This document shows positions 258-8,683 of a stretch of DNA of 12,286 bases, one piece after another (positions within the stretch are counted from its first letter, which is position 1; each line of letters starts with the position of its first letter). Source of the DNA: an uncultured Lachnospiraceae bacterium. Lineage in GTDB: Bacteria; Bacillota_A; Clostridia; Lachnospirales; Lachnospiraceae. The translations under genes were made by a program, and so were the position numbers. The stretch is taken from NCBI GenBank assembly GCA_902767195.1, contig CACXGS010000098.1, positions 1 through 12,286 on the forward strand, in the 5' to 3' direction. The notes under the pieces are model-generated. The model was given only the letters and a program-made list of their open reading frames with translations. It had not been told where the DNA came from and did not search any database.

Positions 258-1361
258 CTACAGCAGATCCAGATAGGAAACTACTTCTTTTTCCGGCAGC
301 AGTTCTTTCAGCGGCCGGATGGCTGTCGGCTCAAAACTGACGATCAGATCGCTGTCGGCTTTCTGTATATCTATAGCTGCAGTATCGGCAATCTTTGTCA
401 GAATCTCCTCATCGGTCCCGAAACAGAGGTATTCCGGCCCTACGGGTCTCTGCCAGATTGTTAATTTGTTGACACGGATATCTCCGTGAACCAGGGGGAT
501 GAACTCTGCTGCACGTTTATCCGGGGTCTCTTTATTGTTCTTCATCAAAGCATTCAGGGTATCTGCATTGCAAAGATAACGCAGGTTAAAGCTTCCGCCG
601 TAGACATAGGCCGGACGGTCAGCTTTCAGCTCTTCCAGTTCTTCCACCAGATAGCGGATTTTAAACCTGGGCTCAATCCCCAGTTTGCCGGTCATGGTCC
701 TGAGCATCCAGGCCGCCTGGGCGGTGAGTACCATCACTTGGTCCGCTCCGGTTTCTTCCATTTTCTTTACGGCTGCTTTCAGTTGTTTTGTCCCTTCTTT
801 GATCATTCCGCAGGCAAAGTACTCAAAGCCCAGGAATACAGGCTCTGCTTCGTTGGCAAAGGCCAGTCCCTTTTCTTTGCAATATAACTCGAATTTCTCT
901 GCGCTTCCGGCATATCCCGCGGCCGCTGCATCGTCCAGAAGGATGGCTGTGTTTCCGGCAGGATCAACGGGAAGATCCCATGCAGGAGCCGGTGCCGCAT
1001 GACCGCCGTACTGTTTGATCCGTTTTTCCAGATCTTTCCTGCACTTTGCCTTATAGCCTTTCTCCGCCAGCATGGCCCGGCAGAGGAAGATGACGTCGGT
1101 GCAGTCCTCCGGATTCTCACGGAAGTTCTGCCAGCGTTCTCCCAGTCTTGACATGATGCCGGAATATACGATCTCTCCGATATAATCTGTCAGGGGAAGC
1201 TCTTCTTTCCAGACGGCTCTGGCAAGCTGGAGTTTTCTGGAGGGATAATCATGCATTTTTCTGGAAGCAAGGTATTCCGGACAGTAGCATACGGCCTGAT
1301 CCATATGAATGACCTGATGATTTAACTGTTCTTCATAAGATTCCAATGTATATTTTTTCAT
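258..1361 (-). CDS. degenerate GlcF/HdrB-like (CCG-domain) subunit lacking Fe-S ligands
   Basis: This 367-residue soluble protein has no clear catalytic motif, but its outline follows the Fe-S subunits of glycolate oxidase (GlcF) and heterodisulfide reductase (HdrB/D). Residues 40-60 (PSRKLQLARAVWKEELPLT) match the usual 'SPRGR..LARA...GE..LT' stretch. At 64-80 the cluster motif CxxCxxC is replaced by YSGIMSRLGERW. The two CCG-type modules can be traced at about 138-265 and 290-355. Their cysteine motifs now read GFEYFACG (178-185), TAQAAWML (213-220), YGGSFNLRYL (254-263) and SFEPTAIRPL (342-351). Scattered cysteines remain (25, 27, 87, 94, 161, 184, 264, 313), but not in ligand patterns. 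Start ATG overlaps the preceding flavoenzyme stop as ATGA, so translation is coupled. I infer a structural or regulatory partner of that flavoenzyme. The reading frame is intact, which argues against a dead gene. Assignment rests on motif alignment by eye. Confidence 0.6.
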   Translation of the reverse strand: MKKYTLESYEEQLNHQVIHMDQAVCYCPEYLASRKMHDYPSRKLQLARAVWKEELPLTDYIGEIVYSGIMSRLGERWQNFRENPEDCTDVIFLCRAMLAEKGYKAKCRKDLEKRIKQYGGHAAPAPAWDLPVDPAGNTAILLDDAAAAGYAGSAEKFELYCKEKGLAFANEAEPVFLGFEYFACGMIKEGTKQLKAAVKKMEETGADQVMVLTAQAAWMLRTMTGKLGIEPRFKIRYLVEELEELKADRPAYVYGGSFNLRYLCNADTLNALMKNNKETPDKRAAEFIPLVHGDIRVNKLTIWQRPVGPEYLCFGTDEEILTKIADTAAIDIQKADSDLIVSFEPTAIRPLKELLPEKEVVSYLDLL

Positions 1362-2770
1362 AATCCCAACACTCCCTTGTTCACCAGTCCTTTGGGATCC
1401 AGTGCGTCTTTGATCTTCTGCATGACTTCAATTCCCGCTTCTCCGTGCTCATATACCAGGTATTCCGCCTTTGCTTTTCCGCTGCCATGGTGATGGGAAA
1501 CATTGCCGCCGTTGGCCAGGCTGGTGCGGATGGCGATATCGAGACATTTCCTGTAATAGTTTTCGCCGTCAAAGTCATCTCCTCCGGTTTTGGCGTGGAA
1601 TATGACATAGACGGAAGCACCGGTGTGGTAGACATGGGAGAAATGACAATCCACACTGTCACAGAGCGGCTCCAGGGCCTTTCTCATCTCTCTCCACACA
1701 TCCAGGATGCGGTCCCAGGGCGCAGCCACCTCGATGGCATCGGCTGTTCCACCGCGGATGGCATCGAAATCCAGCATCTTTTTCGTGGAAAATCTGGTGG
1801 CAAACCAGTCGTCACCGGGCTTGTTCCCCTGGCAGACCCCTTCATGGGCCTGACAGAAGCGGCGGACTGTTTTTACTTCCAGATCTACCATCTCCGCCAG
1901 TCCTTCATAGCCAAAGACCACAAAAACATGCCCCTTCTCAAACCCGTATTTCTCAATCTTGGGAATGGCTTCCTCCTCATCATAGACACGGACAACGGCA
2001 GGAAGGATTCCGCTCTGGACGAATTCTCTCACTGCTGTCATGGCCTGCTCGGTGCTGGGGAATGTATATGCTTCAAAATATCGTTTCTCGGCAACCGGGT
2101 AGATTTTCATCTCCACCTTGGTCACGATTCCGTAGACCCCTTCCGCCCCCAGGAAAAGCTCGTCAAGCTCCGGCCCGGTGGATGCTTTTGGACAGCGGTG
2201 GGTTCTTACGATATGGCCGTTTGGAAGGACCACTTCCAGAGAATTCACCATGTCATCCATCTTACCGTACTTGGTGGAAAATGTTCCGATCGCTCTGGTG
2301 GATACCATTCCTCCGAGAACGGCGCTCTGGAAAGACTGGGGATAATGGCCGGCGGTAAATCCCGCCTCGTTGAGCATATTCTCAAACTCGGCCCCGTTAA
2401 GTCCTGCGCCGCACATGGCGGTACAGTTGATCGGATTGATTTCTATATCCCGAAGTTTCTTGATATCGACAATGATTTCTCCCCGGTCGGGAATGGATCC
2501 GCCTACGATGCCGGAACCTCCGCCAAAGGGTATCACACCGATCTCATATTCCTGACACAGCTCCATGATCCGGCTGACTTCCTCTGTGTTGTTGGGTCTG
2601 ACAATAAGCGAAGGCAGGTATTTATAAGGACCCTGAAGAAGCCATTTATACTCCACCGGATAGCAGCCGTGAGCATAGATCAGCTTCTCTTCCTCCCGGT
2701 CAAGGATCTCCACCTCGGGCAATTCCTTAATAATGCTTTCAACAAATTGCTGTAATGCTTTTTCCTTCAT
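1358..2770 (-). CDS. FAD-binding oxidase, alkyl-DHAP synthase-like (VAO/GlcD fold)
   Basis: This 470-residue flavoprotein belongs to the VAO/PCMH fold. The N-terminal FAD_binding_4 domain carries PFGGGSGIVGGS (81-92) and GHYPQSFQSAVLGG (141-154). The C-terminal half belongs to the FAD-oxidase_C type. Beyond the general GlcD pattern it resembles eukaryotic alkylglycerone-phosphate synthase (AGPS) from memory: STRAIGTFSTKYG (157-169), STGPELDELFLGAEG (197-211), APWDR (350-354), VYHTGASVYVIF (380-391), the triple histidine HHHGSGK (426-432) and the DPKGLVNKG end. The arginine (261) and tyrosine (381) corresponding to AGPS catalytic residues are kept. AGPS swaps the acyl group of acyl-DHAP for a fatty alcohol; related bacterial proteins may instead oxidise 2-hydroxy acids. 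Start at 2770 follows AGGAGG with a 4-base gap; an ATG at 2785 has a poorer site. It begins 11 bases after the DUF1667 stop. Confidence 0.8.
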   Translation of the reverse strand: MKEKALQQFVESIIKELPEVEILDREEEKLIYAHGCYPVEYKWLLQGPYKYLPSLIVRPNNTEEVSRIMELCQEYEIGVIPFGGGSGIVGGSIPDRGEIIVDIKKLRDIEINPINCTAMCGAGLNGAEFENMLNEAGFTAGHYPQSFQSAVLGGMVSTRAIGTFSTKYGKMDDMVNSLEVVLPNGHIVRTHRCPKASTGPELDELFLGAEGVYGIVTKVEMKIYPVAEKRYFEAYTFPSTEQAMTAVREFVQSGILPAVVRVYDEEEAIPKIEKYGFEKGHVFVVFGYEGLAEMVDLEVKTVRRFCQAHEGVCQGNKPGDDWFATRFSTKKMLDFDAIRGGTADAIEVAAPWDRILDVWREMRKALEPLCDSVDCHFSHVYHTGASVYVIFHAKTGGDDFDGENYYRKCLDIAIRTSLANGGNVSHHHGSGKAKAEYLVYEHGEAGIEVMQKIKDALDPKGLVNKGVLGL

Positions 2771-2774
2771 GATT

Positions 2775-2780
2775 CCTCCT
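2775..2780 (-). promoter_or_regulatory. ribosome binding site that decides the flavoenzyme start
   Basis: AGGAGG lies between two in-frame ATG codons (2785 and 2770). It can serve only the downstream ATG at 2770, giving MKEKALQ as the N-terminus. The spacing of 4 bases is slightly short. Confidence 0.6.
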
Positions 2781-2781
2781 G

Positions 2782-3147
2782 TCATATCCTTTCCATGGTT
2801 CTGGCAGCGATGATATCCACGCCGGTCTCCCGGATGTTCTCGACAATGATGTCTCCTTCTCTTACCGGAGCAGTGACGCTGATCTGATAAAGATCCTTCA
2901 GACAGTCATTGAATATACTGCGGCTGATCTCACCGGAACTTACAACGGGCAGCAGGGAATAGGGAGCCTGGCTGATACTTACTGTAGTCGTAAGTACCCG
3001 CCTGGGATCCTTGTATTCGTTGATGGCATACTCTTCCCCGTTTTTACAAAAGAATCCTTCTGTTTTTATATTTCCGTCATCATCAATCTTCAGGGTACCC
3101 ACACAGCTCCTGGGGCACACGATACAAGTATAGGTTTTTTCTATCAT
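2782..3147 (-). CDS. DUF1667 small four-cysteine protein, oxidoreductase partner
   Basis: This 121-residue protein has four cysteines in the DUF1667 pattern: CIVCPRSC (C8, C11, C15) and GFFCKNGEEYA (C34), followed by the family's PRRVLTTTV stretch. The cysteine layout suggests a Fe-S cluster or metal site, but I cannot show that from sequence. In Clostridia, DUF1667 genes regularly follow a GlpA-like and an HcnB/GlpB-like flavoprotein, as here, and are thought to complete an anaerobic glycerol-3-phosphate dehydrogenase complex in place of GlpC. Unlike E. coli GlpC it is short and has no CCG domains. Start ATG 3147 is preferred over the in-frame GTG at 3156 because GGAGG sits 10 bases from the former and only 1 base from the latter. 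The gap to the upstream gene is 5 bases. Confidence 0.85.
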   Translation of the reverse strand: MIEKTYTCIVCPRSCVGTLKIDDDGNIKTEGFFCKNGEEYAINEYKDPRRVLTTTVSISQAPYSLLPVVSSGEISRSIFNDCLKDLYQISVTAPVREGDIIVENIRETGVDIIAARTMERI

Positions 3148-3152
3148 AATGA

Positions 3153-4403
3153 TCACACCTCCATGTCGATGGTAATGTTCTCATCCATGAGGAGAGCGTC
3201 CTTCCTGAGCACTTCGCCAACCATTTCCGGCGGTTTAACAGCCACGTGTTTTCGAAGTCTGGTTCCGGTATCTCCCTGTGTGAGCACTGCCGTAACATTT
3301 TCTTCAGGCTCCTTTACTCTCATGTAGAGGCGGATCCTGTCATTCATGGTATCCTTGCGGATTTTCTGCGGGAATATGAAAGATACATTTCTGCCCGGAA
3401 GAACGTCGACGGTCTCATAGGCCTTCTCCCCTTCCCGCACATAACGGGCAGCGCCTCTTGCCGCTGTTTCCCCGGTTTCAGAAACGTAATCCACCAGGTC
3501 AAATACTGTTGCCACATTTCCTGCCGCAAAGATTCCCGGGATAGATGTCATCATCTCGTCATTGACTACCGGCCCTTTGGTAGCCGGGCACATCTCGACA
3601 CCGGCATTCTCGCTCAGCTCATTTTCCGGAATCAGACCGACGGATAGTACCAGCAGGTCACAGGGGATATAACGTTCGGATCCCTCAATGGGCGCCAGCT
3701 TGTCATCCACATCCACTACAGTGACCCCTTCGATTCTTTTTCTGCCGTGAATCTTACGCACAGTGGTCCCCAGATGGAGAGGAATATTATAGTCTTCAAG
3801 GCACTGGACAATGTTCCGGGTCAGGCCGTTCTGGTGGTGCATGATCTCATAGACACCTTCCACCTCGATTCCCTCTAAAGTCATTCTCCTGGCCATAATC
3901 AGTCCGATGTCTCCGGATCCCAGAATCACCGCCTTCTTTCCGGGAAGGTAACCCTCCATATTAATATATCTCTGAACCGCACCGGCAGTAAGAACTCCCG
4001 CCGGTCTGCTTCCGTAGATCATGACCTGGGACCGGGTCCTCTCCCTGCATCCCATGGTAAGGATCACGGTCTTCGCGTCAATTTCTGTCATGCCGTCCTT
4101 CTGGTTGACAGCGTATACTTTTTTATCTTTTGTCACTTCCAGGACCATGGTGTCCAATAAAACAGGAATCTTCAGCTCCACCAGCTCATCGATGAATCTC
4201 TGGGCATACTGGCCGCCGGTCATCCTTTTCTTAAAACGCTCAAGTCCAAAGCCGTCATGGATACACTGCTGGAGGATTCCTCCCAGGGTTTTGTCTCTTT
4301 CGATCACGATGGTATTAAGCCCCTGTTTATGTGCTTCGATAGCAGCTGCCAGACCGGCCGGCCCGCCGCCGATGACGGCACAGTCTACGATATATTGCTT
4401 CAT
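3153..4403 (-). CDS. FAD/NAD(P)-dependent oxidoreductase, HcnB/GlpB-like
   Basis: This 416-residue flavoprotein has two dinucleotide-binding sites: GGGPAGLAAA (12-21) for FAD with the acidic strand end at IVIERD, and ILGSGDIGLIMARRM (160-174) for NAD(P). The MGCRERTRSQ and GSRPAGVLTAGAVQ segment (117-143) is typical of HcnB-type subunits of hydrogen cyanide synthase and opine oxidase and of clostridial GlpB-like proteins. GIFAAGN (290-296) is the C-terminal FAD-contact motif. It lacks the redox-active CxxC disulfide of thioredoxin reductase-type enzymes. It likely passes electrons from the GlpA-like dehydrogenase to NAD(P) or another acceptor, together with the DUF1667 protein. Its ATG overlaps the upstream stop as ATGA (4400-4403), with AGGAG just upstream, so the two flavoproteins are translationally coupled. 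The exact acceptor is unknown. Confidence 0.88.
   Translation of the reverse strand: MKQYIVDCAVIGGGPAGLAAAIEAHKQGLNTIVIERDKTLGGILQQCIHDGFGLERFKKRMTGGQYAQRFIDELVELKIPVLLDTMVLEVTKDKKVYAVNQKDGMTEIDAKTVILTMGCRERTRSQVMIYGSRPAGVLTAGAVQRYINMEGYLPGKKAVILGSGDIGLIMARRMTLEGIEVEGVYEIMHHQNGLTRNIVQCLEDYNIPLHLGTTVRKIHGRKRIEGVTVVDVDDKLAPIEGSERYIPCDLLVLSVGLIPENELSENAGVEMCPATKGPVVNDEMMTSIPGIFAAGNVATVFDLVDYVSETGETAARGAARYVREGEKAYETVDVLPGRNVSFIFPQKIRKDTMNDRIRLYMRVKEPEENVTAVLTQGDTGTRLRKHVAVKPPEMVGEVLRKDALLMDENITIDMEV
3158..3162 (-). promoter_or_regulatory. ribosome binding site for the DUF1667 gene
   Basis: GGAGG lies inside the last codons (Glu-Val) of the upstream oxidoreductase gene. It sits 10 bases from ATG 3147 and 1 base from GTG 3156, which selects the ATG and gives a 121-residue protein. 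Confidence 0.65.
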
Positions 4404-6127
4404 TCTGCCATCTCCTTTCTGGACTTATCCACAAGAATGTTGCTGCCTTCTCCTGCTTTGGTAATCTCCATCTCGTCAAGACCGAGCTCTCTGGCCAGGA
4501 TCTCCACAACACGCGGGCCGCAGAATCCGCCCTGGCATCTTCCCATTCCGGCTCTGGTCCTTCTCTTGACCGCATCCACGGTCCTTGCCGGAATCTTTCC
4601 GTGGATGGCATCCACAATCTCTGCTTCCGTTACCGTCTCGCACCGGCAGATCACATGACCGTAGAGGGGATTCTCTTTAATAAGAGCTTCCTGCTCTTCT
4701 TTACTGCATACTCTGAAAGGTTTCTTTCCTTTCCGAATAGGATTGTAGTCATCCCGGATTTCTGCATCCGGAACCATTTCCCGATAAATCTCCGTTACCC
4801 GTTCCGCGATAGCCGGAGCCGAGGCAACGCCCGGCGACTGGATGCCGGAAACATGGATAAAGTTAGTAAGGATTTCAGATTTTTCTATGATAAAGTCTTC
4901 GATATAATTGGAAGGACGGTTTCCTCCGAAATAGCGAATGATATCTTTCTCGTTGATTCCGGGTGTGAGCTTCTTGCCTTTCTCCATAATAAAGTAGAGA
5001 TCATTCTCATCCACACCGGTATCCCTCTTATCCGGAACTTCCAGGGCTGACGGACCCCAGAAGGGATTGCCTGCCGGACTGATCTGCGGACCTCCGCCTT
5101 TGGTAAAGTTCCTGGGAGCTGTTCCCACGAAGCAGTGCGGCGTCAGATCTGCCTTTTTCCGGTCCATAACTACCAGGGCGCCTCTTCTGCCATGGATGGT
5201 GTAGAAGCGGTCACCGGCCATCTCTGCGATCTCATCGGCATAGAGTCCGGCTGCATCGATGACGATGCCGGCCTTTATGATGCCTTTGTTGGTCACGATT
5301 CCTGTGATGGTATTGCCTTCTTTGTCCATGGCAAGGACTTCTGTATCCAGCATCAGTTTTGCCCCGTTATCGATGGCATTCTCCATCAGGGCTTCCACGA
5401 CTTCATAGGGCTCGACAAAAGCTGCTGAGGGAGTCCAGAGGGCTGTCGTCACATCTTTGCTCAGACGGTGTTCGATCTTCCTGGCTTCTTCCCCGGAAAT
5501 GAGTTCGATGCCGGGAACTTTATTAACCAGTCCACGTTCATAGTAGCCCTTGATTACCTTATCGTCCTCCTCGTCAAACCCGATGACGAAGGATCCCAGA
5601 CGAAGCAGGGTGAAATCCAGCTCCTCGGCCCACTGTGTGTACATGGCATTGCCCTTTACATTAAATCTGGCCTTAAGGGAGCCTGGTTTGGAATCATAGC
5701 CTGAGTGGATCATGCCGTTATTGGATTTGGAAGTCCCTTCACATACATCGGAGGCCGCCTCAAGAACGATGATGCTCTTATTCAGCTTCGACAGCTCCCT
5801 GGCTGCCCCACATCCTGTGATACCTCCCCCGATAATCACGATATCGCTCTCGGCCACGATCCCTTTCTTTCTGCCTGCCTCGATATCTGCGGTCCGGTCT
5901 ATTACAGGCGCCTGATAGTCCTCGGATGTAATGAGGTTGACCACGCCTTTTGTCCCCGGTAGTTTTCCCGCGATGTGTCCGATGTCCACTACCTGCTGCC
6001 ATACCGGAACAAGGCCTTCAAGAGTGATGACATGCCGCTCATCGATGGACATACTGATTCTGTCTGCAATCTCTTTCCCGCATTGTTCTGTAACCTGACT
6101 GTAAAATGTATCCCTTTCTGATGACAT
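4400..6127 (-). CDS. GlpA-like FAD dehydrogenase with BON-like N-terminus and C-terminal [2Fe-2S] domain
   Basis: This 575-residue protein has three parts. Residues 12-70 resemble a BON (OsmY-type) domain, with 'V.LEGLVPVW...' and 'LPGTKGVVNLI' matching the family's 'V.L.G.V.....A......PGV..V.N' pattern. Residues 95-465 form a DAO-type FAD oxidoreductase with IIGGGITGCGAAREL (98-112), GTSKSNNGMIHSGYDSKPGS (131-150, typical of anaerobic G3P dehydrogenase) and HVSGIQSPGVASAPAIAE near the end. Residues 490-540 form a BFD-like domain with C494-x-C496 and C531-x4-C536. Clostridial GlpA is normally about 480-500 residues, so the N-terminal block accounts for the excess length. Predicted reaction: glycerol-3-phosphate, or a related polyol phosphate, to the ketone. 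It follows the kinase by 76 bases and has AAGGAGG before ATG 6127. No membrane segment or signal peptide is visible. Confidence 0.88.
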   Translation of the reverse strand: MSSERDTFYSQVTEQCGKEIADRISMSIDERHVITLEGLVPVWQQVVDIGHIAGKLPGTKGVVNLITSEDYQAPVIDRTADIEAGRKKGIVAESDIVIIGGGITGCGAARELSKLNKSIIVLEAASDVCEGTSKSNNGMIHSGYDSKPGSLKARFNVKGNAMYTQWAEELDFTLLRLGSFVIGFDEEDDKVIKGYYERGLVNKVPGIELISGEEARKIEHRLSKDVTTALWTPSAAFVEPYEVVEALMENAIDNGAKLMLDTEVLAMDKEGNTITGIVTNKGIIKAGIVIDAAGLYADEIAEMAGDRFYTIHGRRGALVVMDRKKADLTPHCFVGTAPRNFTKGGGPQISPAGNPFWGPSALEVPDKRDTGVDENDLYFIMEKGKKLTPGINEKDIIRYFGGNRPSNYIEDFIIEKSEILTNFIHVSGIQSPGVASAPAIAERVTEIYREMVPDAEIRDDYNPIRKGKKPFRVCSKEEQEALIKENPLYGHVICRCETVTEAEIVDAIHGKIPARTVDAVKRRTRAGMGRCQGGFCGPRVVEILARELGLDEMEITKAGEGSNILVDKSRKEMAE

Positions 6128-6203: not shown

Positions 6204-7697
6204 TTATTTATCCTTCATCCAGCCGATGCTTCTCTTAATGGCATCCTGCCACTGGGTATAGCGCCGCTCTCTCTCTGCCTCATCAATCTGAGGATCAAAG
6301 GAACGATCGATCGACAGAGCCTTGTCCATCTCATCCAGTGTCCAGAAGCCGGTGGCCAGAGCTGCCATCTCTGCAGCGCCCAGACTGGTAGCCTCAACAG
6401 AAGCCGGACGGTTAACCTTTACATTTAACATGTCGGCCATGTTCTGGGCAAGGAAATTGTTATTGGAAGCACCGCCGTCAATCCGCACATCCTGCATCTT
6501 AACACCGGACTCTTTCTCTACAGCGTTCAAAATATCTTTCAGACGGAAATTGATTCCCTCCAGAGTAGCTCTTGCCAGGTGGGCTCTTGTGGTTCCTCTG
6601 GTGAGTCCGAACATAGTTCCTCTGGTGAATGGATCATGGTAAGGAGCACTCAGTCCGGTGAGAGCCGGCACGAAGATGACACCGTTGGAATCCGGTACAG
6701 ACAGGGCAAGGTCCTCGGTCTCGGGTGATGCATCGATGATCTTGATTCCGTCACGCAGCCACTGGATCGCAGAACCGGTTACAGCCTCATATCCCTCCAG
6801 GGCATAGGTGATCTCATCACCGATCTTCCATGCAATAACCGTATTCAGTCCTTCATCGGAAATGACACAGTTATTTCCGACATTGATATCCAGGAAGGAT
6901 CCGGTTCCGTTGGTAATGTCAGCGGTCCCTTCTGTCCGGCAGCCCTGGGCAAACAATGCCGCATGCTGGTCTGCGATGGCGCCGGCAATCAGGATCTCGC
7001 CACCAAAGATATCCGGATCGGTCGTGCCAAAGCTTCCGGAGTCATTCCGAACCTCCGGGAAAATAGAAACCGGGATTCCCAGATAATCCAGGAATTCTGT
7101 ATACCACTTACCGGTGGACAGGTCCAGACTTCCCATAACCGAAGCGTTGGAAAATGCTACTGCGTGGGTCTTGCCTCCGGTAAGCTTCCAGATCAGCCAG
7201 GTATCGATGGTACCGATCAGGGCATCTCCCTTATCGATGGCTTCCTTAATCTCCGGAACATTCTCGATATACCATTTGAGCATCATGGAGGTATAAACCG
7301 GTGCTACCGTCCAGCCCGTAGCCTTCCGGGCTTTCTCTCCCCACTCGCTGTTGTTGATAGCATCACAATCCTTACTGGTTCTGGCATCCTGCCATACAAT
7401 GGCTTTATAATAGGGGATACCTGTATTCTTATCCCATACCACACAGGTCGCTCTCTGGTTGGTAATTCCGATGGAATCAATCTGGTCAGCAGTGATTCCT
7501 GCTTCCTTCATGGCATTCTTACACATGGCGACAGACTTATCATAAATCTCCATGGCATCATGCTCCACCTTGTCCTCGGCCGGTGTGTACTGTGTAAACT
7601 CTTCATAGCTCTGGGCAGCGATATTGAAATCCTTATCAAACAATAACGCTCTGGTTCCTGTGGTTCCCTCGTCGATTACCATAATGTACTTGCTCAT
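6204..7697 (-). CDS. glpK: FGGY-family kinase, glycerol kinase-like
   Basis: This 497-residue protein has the full glycerol-kinase length and layout: DEGTTGTRALLFD (9-21, phosphate 1 loop), AIVWQDARTS (99-108), GTIDTWLIWKLTGG (162-175), GTGSFLDIN (264-272), WLRD (313-316), FVPALTGLSAPYHDP (342-356) and IDGGASNNNF (407-415, adenosine site). Compared with E. coli GlpK, Arg83, Trp103, Asp245 and Phe270 are kept, but Glu84 is Ala83 (NQRATCVVW) and Tyr135 is Val134 (APVYTSM). Both normally bind glycerol, so substrate choice is uncertain. The regulatory histidine of the Firmicute YHFFG loop, phosphorylated by the PTS, is Asp229 (PDIFG). Start ATG 7697 (MSKYIMVIDE) follows AGGAGG with a 6-base gap; the longer frame from 7736 has no such site. 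It is the first gene of the six-gene operon. Confidence 0.85.
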   Translation of the reverse strand: MSKYIMVIDEGTTGTRALLFDKDFNIAAQSYEEFTQYTPAEDKVEHDAMEIYDKSVAMCKNAMKEAGITADQIDSIGITNQRATCVVWDKNTGIPYYKAIVWQDARTSKDCDAINNSEWGEKARKATGWTVAPVYTSMMLKWYIENVPEIKEAIDKGDALIGTIDTWLIWKLTGGKTHAVAFSNASVMGSLDLSTGKWYTEFLDYLGIPVSIFPEVRNDSGSFGTTDPDIFGGEILIAGAIADQHAALFAQGCRTEGTADITNGTGSFLDINVGNNCVISDEGLNTVIAWKIGDEITYALEGYEAVTGSAIQWLRDGIKIIDASPETEDLALSVPDSNGVIFVPALTGLSAPYHDPFTRGTMFGLTRGTTRAHLARATLEGINFRLKDILNAVEKESGVKMQDVRIDGGASNNNFLAQNMADMLNVKVNRPASVEATSLGAAEMAALATGFWTLDEMDKALSIDRSFDPQIDEAERERRYTQWQDAIKRSIGWMKDK

Positions 7698-7703
7698 ATC
7701 ATA

Positions 7704-7709
7704 CCTCCT
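7704..7709 (-). promoter_or_regulatory. ribosome binding site of the kinase gene
   Basis: AGGAGG, 6 bases before ATG 7697, fixes the N-terminus at MSKYIMVIDE and excludes the upstream in-frame start at 7736. Confidence 0.85.
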
Positions 7710-7721
7710 GTGAAATGAAAA

Positions 7722-7731
7722 AACAGCTGTT
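7722..7731 (-). other. 10-bp palindrome in the kinase leader
   Basis: AACAGCTGTT is a perfect palindrome in the 5' untranslated region, about 45-50 bases after the predicted transcription start. It could be a protein site. It does not fit the CcpA cre consensus well, and a chance palindrome of this length is possible. Confidence 0.25.
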
Positions 7732-7781
7732 ATCATTATCTTGTTGCATAAAAATAAAAGAGTACATATTATGTTAGTTTA

Positions 7782-7915: not shown

Positions 7916-8683
7916 TCAAATCACCGTAATATCATTGGCCCTTGCATACTCTTTGTAGCGGTCCGGCATCTTATCGTCCGTAATAAAGGCATCGAACATA
8001 TCCAGATCGAACATATTGGCCATGGACACTTTATCGAACTTGGAGTAGTCCGCCACCAGATAGCAGGCGTCGGACACCTCAGCCAGTGTCTGATTGGTAA
8101 TGCACTCTTCCAGAGAGGAGTGGGTTACCCCTTTTTTTAAGGAAACGGCAAGTACGCCCATAAAGGCTTTATCGATATTAAAGTTCCGTAGGAAATCATT
8201 GGTAAAGCTGCCGATAAAGGCTCCGGAGATGTTACGCATCTTTCCCCCGGGCATGTAGACCGTCGCATGGGACAGAGTCCTTGCTTTCGCTGCCACATTC
8301 AGAGACAGGGTCACCACATTGATGGGGATGGTATCATCCACATAATCCAGGATCAGTTCAACCGTAGATCCCGAATTCAATGCTATGGTATCTCCGGCAT
8401 GGATCAGCCTGGCTGCCTTCTGTGCTATAATCCTCTTCTCCGGAAGATGAGCCTGCCGCTTCTGGGTAATACTGAATTCTTCCGCTGTCTGGTAAGATGA
8501 GGGTTCGTCCACATAGGCGCCGCCGTACATGAGATTAACCCCGTACTCTTTCGACAGGTATTTCAGATCTCTCCGGATGGTGGGAACTCCCACCTGATAG
8601 CGTTGTGCCAGTTCATCGGCTTTCACGGATCCCTGCTTAATCAGGATATCCATAATCTCTTTTCTTCTCTCAATGGGAAGCAT
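7916..8683 (-). CDS. DeoR/GlpR-family transcriptional regulator
   Basis: This 255-residue protein has the family's two domains. The N-terminal winged helix (4-58) carries RRKEIMDILIKQGSV, then ELAQRYQVGVPTIRRDLKYL as helix-turn-helix, and ends with MYGGAY. The DeoRC sensor domain (about 80-235) has the NSGSTVE phosphate-binding loop (103-109) and the ADYSKFDK motif (211-218). Family members usually sense phosphorylated sugars or polyols and repress a neighbouring catabolic operon. Here the kinase operon begins just downstream, so its product, a polyol phosphate, is the likely effector (inference). ATG 8683 follows GGAG by 6 bases and the aspS stop by 16 bases, so the gene is probably transcribed with aspS and present under all conditions. 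The stop is followed by a strong terminator. Confidence 0.92.
   Translation of the reverse strand: MLPIERRKEIMDILIKQGSVKADELAQRYQVGVPTIRRDLKYLSKEYGVNLMYGGAYVDEPSSYQTAEEFSITQKRQAHLPEKRIIAQKAARLIHAGDTIALNSGSTVELILDYVDDTIPINVVTLSLNVAAKARTLSHATVYMPGGKMRNISGAFIGSFTNDFLRNFNIDKAFMGVLAVSLKKGVTHSSLEECITNQTLAEVSDACYLVADYSKFDKVSMANMFDLDMFDAFITDDKMPDRYKEYARANDITVI

Follow-up and report, generated by a model that had tools for sequence, protein, structure and literature searches.

CCGx, a putative cluster-free descendant of a GlcF-type iron-sulfur subunit, encoded beside an AGPS-like flavoenzyme in a glycerol operon

GlcF and the iron-sulfur (Fe-S) subunit of D-lactate dehydrogenase combine a PF13183 domain, whose eight cysteines serve two [4Fe-4S] clusters, with two PF02754 domains carrying the CCG motif cysteines, and have a GlcD flavoenzyme as partner. 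HdrB and LutA have the CCG double-domain fold. The soluble Fe-S region of the Mycobacterium smegmatis EtfD (9ojn) is presented in PMC13083937 as an electron wire in which two cubane clusters occur together with one linear [3Fe-4S] cluster and one noncubane [4Fe-4S] cluster. We analysed a 12,286-nucleotide stretch of DNA from an uncultured Lachnospiraceae bacterium (contig CACXGS010000098.1, hereafter the window), in which the last gene of a glycerol operon, here named CCGx, codes for a protein that keeps this fold and the linkage to a flavoenzyme gene (AGPSx), and in which the ligand sets of both cluster types are gone. CCGx probably descends, without the clusters, from the GlcF-type Fe-S subunit encoded next to GlcD-like flavoenzymes, and it would have a structural or gating role. 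The analysis shows its fold, the absence of the ligands and what has become fixed in their place, purifying selection, a near-constant pairing with a single flavoenzyme clade, and a sister family in which both ferredoxin motifs persist.

CCGx and GlcF share fold and domain order, both genes lie directly after that of a FAD_binding_4/FAD-oxidase_C flavoenzyme, and their sequences are transitively homologous. Unlike GlcF, CCGx has no CCG motifs and at most two of the eight ferredoxin ligands, and its flavoenzyme is AGPS-like and not GlcD-like. Compared to HdrB and LutA, whose double domain corresponds to residues 133/136-367 of CCGx, it lacks the cluster ligands and has an extra N-terminal, former ferredoxin domain. 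The ligand sets of EtfD are also missing.

Fold of CCGx and fate of the cluster ligands

A preliminary description of the window, made from the sequence alone, had recognised a GlcF/HdrB-type outline in an intact frame. The frame at 258-1361 is indeed a 367-codon open reading frame (ORF) on the minus strand, and stops are present in the plus-strand reading of these positions. No Pfam or NCBIfam family matched CCGx at E <= 0.1. The outline was borne out by the structural model, which matched CCG-domain proteins, namely EtfD over residues 3-367 and LutA and HdrB over residues 136-367, and which combines the CCG-domain fold with an N-terminal ferredoxin-type domain. Profiles were compared with HHalign, including those of two cluster-bearing families described below and named FS and bridge. 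The bridge family and CCGx matched at 99.6% (E 8e-25 over 343 columns), and the chain to GlcF is formed by GlcF-FS (99.6%), FS-bridge (99.4%) and GlcF-bridge (96.9%). The FS-CCGx comparison gave 93.5%, the direct GlcF-CCGx comparison 90.7% over 147 columns with a GlcF set of two sequences, and the comparison of CCGx with 12 HdrB-like proteins only 19.8%, while 16 decoy comparisons (reversed profiles and flavoenzymes) stayed at or below 1.1%. These values show a transitive homology of CCGx to the GlcF/HdrB-type family, and a chance resemblance is excluded by the contrast with the decoys and by the 113 proteins found at E <= 1e-3. An unrelated fold merely resembling GlcF was rejected on the basis of the structure matches, the HHalign chain and the low decoy values.

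The preliminary description also stated that every recognisable ligand had been lost. All the replacement motifs it quoted are present. By profile alignment, the start of GFEYFACG aligns with the first CCG motif of GlcF, the CCG lying opposite FLG, and TAQAAWML aligns with the CPSC motif of GlcF; YGGSFNLRYL and SFEPTAIRPL map to the second CCG domain via the bridge family alignment. The sequence YSGIMSRLGERWQ maps to the second ferredoxin motif (CxxCxxCxxxC) of the bridge family. The first ferredoxin motif, not mentioned earlier, falls in HQVIHMDQAVCYCPEY, with Q16, H19, A23 and C27 at the ligand positions. The former ligand cysteine C27 survives in the window copy and in 80 of the 126 members with a residue there; one surviving cysteine cannot hold a cluster, and the word 'every' was slightly too strong.

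The protein search returned 113 CCGx-type proteins at E <= 1e-3, window copy included, and the profile search 186 proteins, the best 120 of which were listed. In total 131 proteins were gathered, of which 127 (339-400 amino acids, window copy included) were used and four shorter ones were dropped. None of the eight ferredoxin cysteines is kept in 44 of these proteins, one in 81 and two in 2, so that at most two of the eight PF13183 cysteines remain. When aligned on the bridge family, the other ligand positions of the first motif hold Gln16 (125/125), His19 (110/125) and Gly/Ala23 (126/126), and those of the second motif Ser/Gly68 (109/127 rows) and Ser71, Gly74 and Gln78 (127/127 each). PF02754 did not match the window CCGx, whereas it did match the GlcF control L011, and it was absent among the 25 of 42 Pfam families listed for 96 CCGx members. 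None of the 21 invariant columns in the alignment of these 96 proteins is a cysteine. The cysteine loss is thus common to the family, and the possibility of a single degenerate copy was rejected. Neither of the two outcomes that would have refuted the preliminary description, an unrelated fold or a lone degenerate copy, was found, and its interpretation is supported.

Among the 127 full-length members, 31 columns reach at least 98% identity, 20 of which lie within residues 1-100, a region now rich in fixed Gln, Asp, Ser, Arg, Trp and Glu. Four of the eight ligand columns belong to this set (hypergeometric P 0.0023 over the protein and 0.049 within residues 1-100). The former ferredoxin domain is therefore the most constrained part of CCGx, which would not be expected under free decay. 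As many of the fixed residues are polar or charged, and as His19 and Cys27 are frequent, the emptied sites might hold another cofactor or ligand, such as a metal at His19/Cys27/Asp21 or the substrate itself, which would make CCGx a repurposed active or binding subunit instead of a plain scaffold. We regard this as quite improbable, since the Cys27 and Cys25 columns are variable (Asn, Ser, Thr and others), making a conserved metal site there unlikely, and since the Pfam matches of the family do not single out any type of enzyme. In the Pfam scan of the 96 members, 11 matched Peptidase_C93 (best E 0.022), 7 DUF6930 (best E 0.0027) and 5 HAD Hydrolase (best E 5.3e-05); a hydrolase or peptidase identity was rejected, the window copy having none of these matches.

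The source names among the matches listed are mostly 'hypothetical' or 'uncharacterized' protein, with one TPR repeat protein. CCGx is unnamed in Pfam and NCBIfam, in keeping with the earlier suggestion that the family may be undescribed, and no paper describing it was recognised in our literature searches of open-licence papers.

Maintenance of CCGx and pairing with AGPSx

The gene had been proposed to be maintained and coupled to its partner through an ATGA overlap. Outside the window, every locus read in which both genes are intact (11 of 11) has the identical overlap, and the three loci with a broken CCGx copy have lost it. The ratio of nonsynonymous to synonymous substitution rates (dN/dS) of CCGx could be computed in seven of eight pairs and was 0.066-0.179 in all seven, as expected for a maintained gene; in some pairs dS exceeds 1 and the values are approximate. 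The dN/dS of AGPSx was 0.015-0.149 (eight pairs), and that of CCGx was higher in six of the seven pairs with both values. This difference, the lost cofactor, the broken copies in loci L036-L038 and the truncated copy in L001 are what might be seen if CCGx were a decaying relic of a GlcF subunit. Such a relic is extremely improbable and is largely refuted by conservation: the dN/dS values are low in every pair computed, the 127 full-length members share their 31 columns, and the four-base overlap is kept at all 11 intact loci. A pseudogene was likewise rejected on the basis of purifying selection and column conservation.

The genome samples were all centred on CCGx-bearing genomes, and the following rates are not general frequencies. 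In the family sample around Eubacterium aggregans, CCGx was detected in 10 of 40 genomes (E < 1e-140) and AGPSx in the same 10 (E < 1e-200), next to each other; two more genomes gave weak matches near 7e-4, at loci with an ordinary Fe-S/CCG protein. In the family sample around a Lachnospiraceae bacterium both genes occurred in the same 3 of 299 genomes, and in the class sample CCGx or AGPSx was found at comparable strength in one genome of 291 (G001). AGPSx-CCGx is the constant core across the loci, and a complex of the two proteins is likely.

Cluster-bearing relatives and the partner flavoenzyme

A phylum-wide search of 398 genomes (E <= 1e-10) identified one closer relative besides G001, locus L105 of genome G642 (E 3.7e-23). 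This locus is an operon of the same type, with DeoR, GlpA, OxB, DUF1667, AGPSx (48% identical), the partner and GlpK, and its AGPSx and partner genes overlap by 7 bases. The L105 partner and six database relatives (P0132-P0137), which we named the bridge family, keep 8/8 ferredoxin cysteines; the L105 and P0132 sequences share 99% identity, and P0138, a sequence without the N-terminus, was excluded. Besides the ferredoxin ligands, no cysteine is common to the six database sequences, and the domain scans of P0132 and P0136 revealed Fer4_8 (just below the cut-off for P0136) and no CCG match. The bridge family resembles CCGx in its operon type, its sister flavoenzyme, the absence of CCG motifs and the strong HHalign match, but differs from it by all eight ferredoxin cysteines and the Fer4_8 match.

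The FS family was found by a class-wide search. Its proteins have two ferredoxin motifs, give no CCG match and are encoded after an AGPS-like enzyme gene. An FS protein is encoded downstream in 18 of 30 loci from this search and is full length in 15. In the two FS proteins scanned, Fer4_8 was recognised but CCG was not; the GlcF control gave both matches. Cysteine is found in 8-13 of 15 FS proteins at six other columns, and one FS protein contains a CC[AGST] string. The FS loci include L043, L044 and L046-L065; at L043 and L044 the FS gene lies near ETF-domain and KduI/IolB-family genes.

In the flavoenzyme tree the CCGx-linked enzymes form a clade (100/100), separate from the FS-linked clade (100/100), and the bridge flavoenzyme is sister to the CCGx clade (100/99), its row being flagged as long and of unusual letter make-up. 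The deeper joins are weak (81/69), with long branches flagged. Two of the 19 'FS' flavoenzymes in the trees (L048 and L054) were so labelled by likeness alone, and the label 'none' means that no CCG-type gene was seen alongside in the sequence covered. The simplest reading would be that a GlcF-like partner first lost the CCG ligands and then, in the CCGx line, the cubane ligands.

GDGN.H and SGEHGIG-type motifs are features of GlcD-type metal-dependent 2-hydroxyacid dehydrogenases. They are replaced in 13/13 CCGx-linked flavoenzymes by SHHHG and SHVYH[TN]GASVY, and the GlcD motifs, SGEHGIG among them, are present in the GlcD-type controls L074 and L017. The best PDB match of AGPSx is AGPS (2.3e-56), followed by D-lactate dehydrogenase (7.2e-37). 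The preliminary description had expected a change in how the flavoenzyme hands off its electrons; with an enzyme that lacks the GlcD-type motifs and is closest to AGPS, that question may not apply. R352, R447 and Y508 of the Dictyostelium AGPS are important for catalysis, as given in the Figure 5 legend of PMC3509576. With residues numbered by an offset of 3 derived by hand from the alignment, the equivalents of R352 and Y508 are kept in 13/13 CCGx-linked flavoenzymes, several of them near-copies, and that of R447 is Leu in 12/13, Gln in 1/13 and Arg in 0/13; it is Arg in 6/6 members of a longer AGPS-like clade with no CCG-type gene seen alongside, the sequence covered for L070 containing no downstream gene. 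AGPSx thus resembles alkyl-dihydroxyacetone phosphate (DHAP) synthase (AGPS/ADPS), its closest solved structure, in the SHHHG motif and the R352/Y508 equivalents, but differs from it at R447 and by its bacterial operon with a kinase and a glycerol 3-phosphate (G3P) dehydrogenase. As the R447 equivalent is lost and the other two are kept, AGPSx is AGPS-like, and full AGPS membership was rejected. Three more AGPS-like genes (L013, L014 and L015), all from one Eubacterium callanderi genome, each adjoin genes for an FGGY kinase and GlpA, and none of the three lies next to CCGx.

Genomic context and possible function of the pair

CCGx is the last gene of a tightly packed cluster in the order DeoR, glpK, glpA, OxB, DUF1667, AGPSx, CCGx (Table 1), with four-base overlaps between neighbours from glpA onward. 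Directly 3' of the CCGx stop, positions 187-250 of the window form a perfect inverted repeat with 28-nucleotide arms, which start GGTGCCAGGCACC, and an 8-nucleotide loop; it might serve as a terminator or represent a mobile repeat.

Table 1. Positions of the features in the window
Feature	Position	Strand	Basis
CCGx, cluster-free GlcF/EtfD/HdrB-fold protein, 367 amino acids	258..1361	minus	ORF, fold matches, family searches
CCGx residues 1-100, former two-cluster ferredoxin domain	1062..1361	minus	alignment, column conservation
CCGx residues 133-367 and stop codon, double domain of the CCG type lacking the CCG cysteines	258..965	minus	LutA/HdrB matches
ATGA overlap of AGPSx stop and CCGx start (translational coupling)	1358..1361	minus	equal overlap elsewhere
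AGPSx, AGPS-like FAD enzyme of 475 amino acids (FAD_binding_4 + FAD-oxidase_C), partner of CCGx	1358..2785	minus	domains, PDB match, trees
DUF1667 protein, part of an in-frame fusion with AGPSx in L036	2782..3156	minus	domain match
OxB, FAD/NAD(P)-type oxidoreductase (Pyr_redox_2)	3153..4403	minus	domain match
GlpA-like glycerol-3-phosphate dehydrogenase/oxidase with Fer2_BFD; best NCBIfam matches below cut-offs	4400..6127	minus	domain matches
GlpK glycerol kinase	6204..7736	minus	Pfam, NCBIfam
DeoR/GlpR-type regulator, upstream on the same strand (transcription unit not established)	7916..8683	minus	Pfam, NCBIfam

GlpK, GlpA, OxB, DUF1667, AGPSx and CCGx occur together in 9 of 15 other loci; L004 ends at a contig edge, and L001, L036-L038 and L040 differ in content. 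In L040 (5111-12289) the pair lies with genes for a GlpP-type, G3P-responsive antiterminator, an Fe-ADH (best NCBIfam match glycerol 1-phosphate dehydrogenase, below cut-off), an FGGY kinase and a HAD-IIA hydrolase, and two DUF1667 matches are found elsewhere in that genome. In L036 (6491-8287) DUF1667 and AGPSx are fused in one 598-amino-acid ORF, between glycyl radical enzyme and activase genes. In L001 (4598-5768) an OxB fragment is joined to CCGx without its first residues, adjoining a DeoR gene.

We infer a structural or gating role for CCGx, which includes the scaffold idea of the preliminary description. CCGx would bind AGPSx as GlcF-type subunits bind their flavoenzymes, its residues 1-100 may form the contact with AGPSx or a lid close to the flavin, and CCGx would serve as a structural or gating subunit and not as an electron wire. 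Less confidently, electrons leaving the AGPSx flavin might bypass CCGx and go directly to another partner, for which DUF1667/OxB of the same operon would, with similar reserve, be the most plausible candidate. The substrate of AGPSx would probably be a phosphorylated glycerol derivative from the operon kinase and glycerol-phosphate dehydrogenase.

The AGPSx flavin might be reoxidised by DUF1667/OxB, by a soluble carrier or, with a redox-neutral reaction, not at all. Electron transfer from AGPSx is favoured by its fusion to DUF1667, by the relatives linked to ETF genes and by the sister family that bears clusters, and redox-neutral chemistry by the AGPS-like site and the L040 context. With such chemistry, the clusters would have been lost as the AGPSx reaction became redox-neutral, a C-O bond being made or broken on a DHAP-type substrate via a flavin N5 adduct as in AGPS, and CCGx would only hold or gate the enzyme; one form would be glyceryl-ether breakdown by a kinase, oxidation at C2 and AGPS-type release of DHAP. 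We consider this course possible, although not probable. It would agree with the AGPS match, the SHHHG motif and the R352 and Y508 equivalents, with the FGGY kinase and glycerol-phosphate-type dehydrogenase beside the pair in the glp operon and, from different families, in L040, and with a comparable Pseudomonas aeruginosa operon (PA3026-PA3024) of an AGPS-like enzyme, a G3P dehydrogenase and a kinase, the function of which is unproved (PMC8151288). It is opposed by the replacement of R447 and by the ETF-domain genes that follow the AGPS-like genes of L014 and L066-L068 and suggest electron transfer. Neither a kinase nor GlpA was seen near the pair in L036-L038 (L037 being a short contig), and the two ferredoxin motifs of the sister family are hard to reconcile with a redox-neutral reaction.

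Several observations weigh against the descent of CCGx from a GlcF-type subunit with a structural or gating role. With Foldseek alone, the HdrB match (E 3.3e-03) is level with that of glutamate racemase, and fixed columns are only modestly over-represented at the ligand positions, with the P values given above. In L040 the pair occurs without OxB, GlpA and DUF1667 in the 15 kb read, which weakens the electron route. In the near-identical L036-L038, CCGx is broken (start read ATA and an in-frame TAA) and the DUF1667-AGPSx fusion is open, and AGPSx may thus work, or be decaying, without CCGx. Finally, CCGx of L001 is 5'-truncated and the L001 genome bin has no AGPSx match; either a genuine deletion or an assembly error may account for this.

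As judged from its sequence and predicted fold, CCGx is a new form, without clusters, of a fold family already known, for which an intermediate is documented and a functional role is suggested. It clearly illustrates how an Fe-S subunit can lose its clusters and yet retain fold, gene order and partner, and the living intermediate, with two cubane motifs and without CCG motifs, makes the order of loss testable. As a putative non-redox counterpart, found in nature, of a widespread electron-transfer subunit, it would help to tell the structural role of GlcF/HdrB proteins from their electronic one, and it points to a flavoenzyme of AGPS-like type that is uncharacterised and tied to glycerol metabolism. 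It is possible, although unlikely, that a whole Fe-S electron-transfer subunit was turned, by way of an intermediate that still survives, into a gating subunit without clusters for an AGPS-like flavoenzyme, and that the pair releases DHAP from ethers or other C1-substituted glycerol phosphates; if true, this would represent an oxygen-independent route of glyceryl-ether catabolism in anaerobic gut and acetogenic bacteria. In the glycerol-use operon of such gut and acetogenic bacteria, an electron carrier has seemingly been turned into a non-redox partner of a flavin enzyme.
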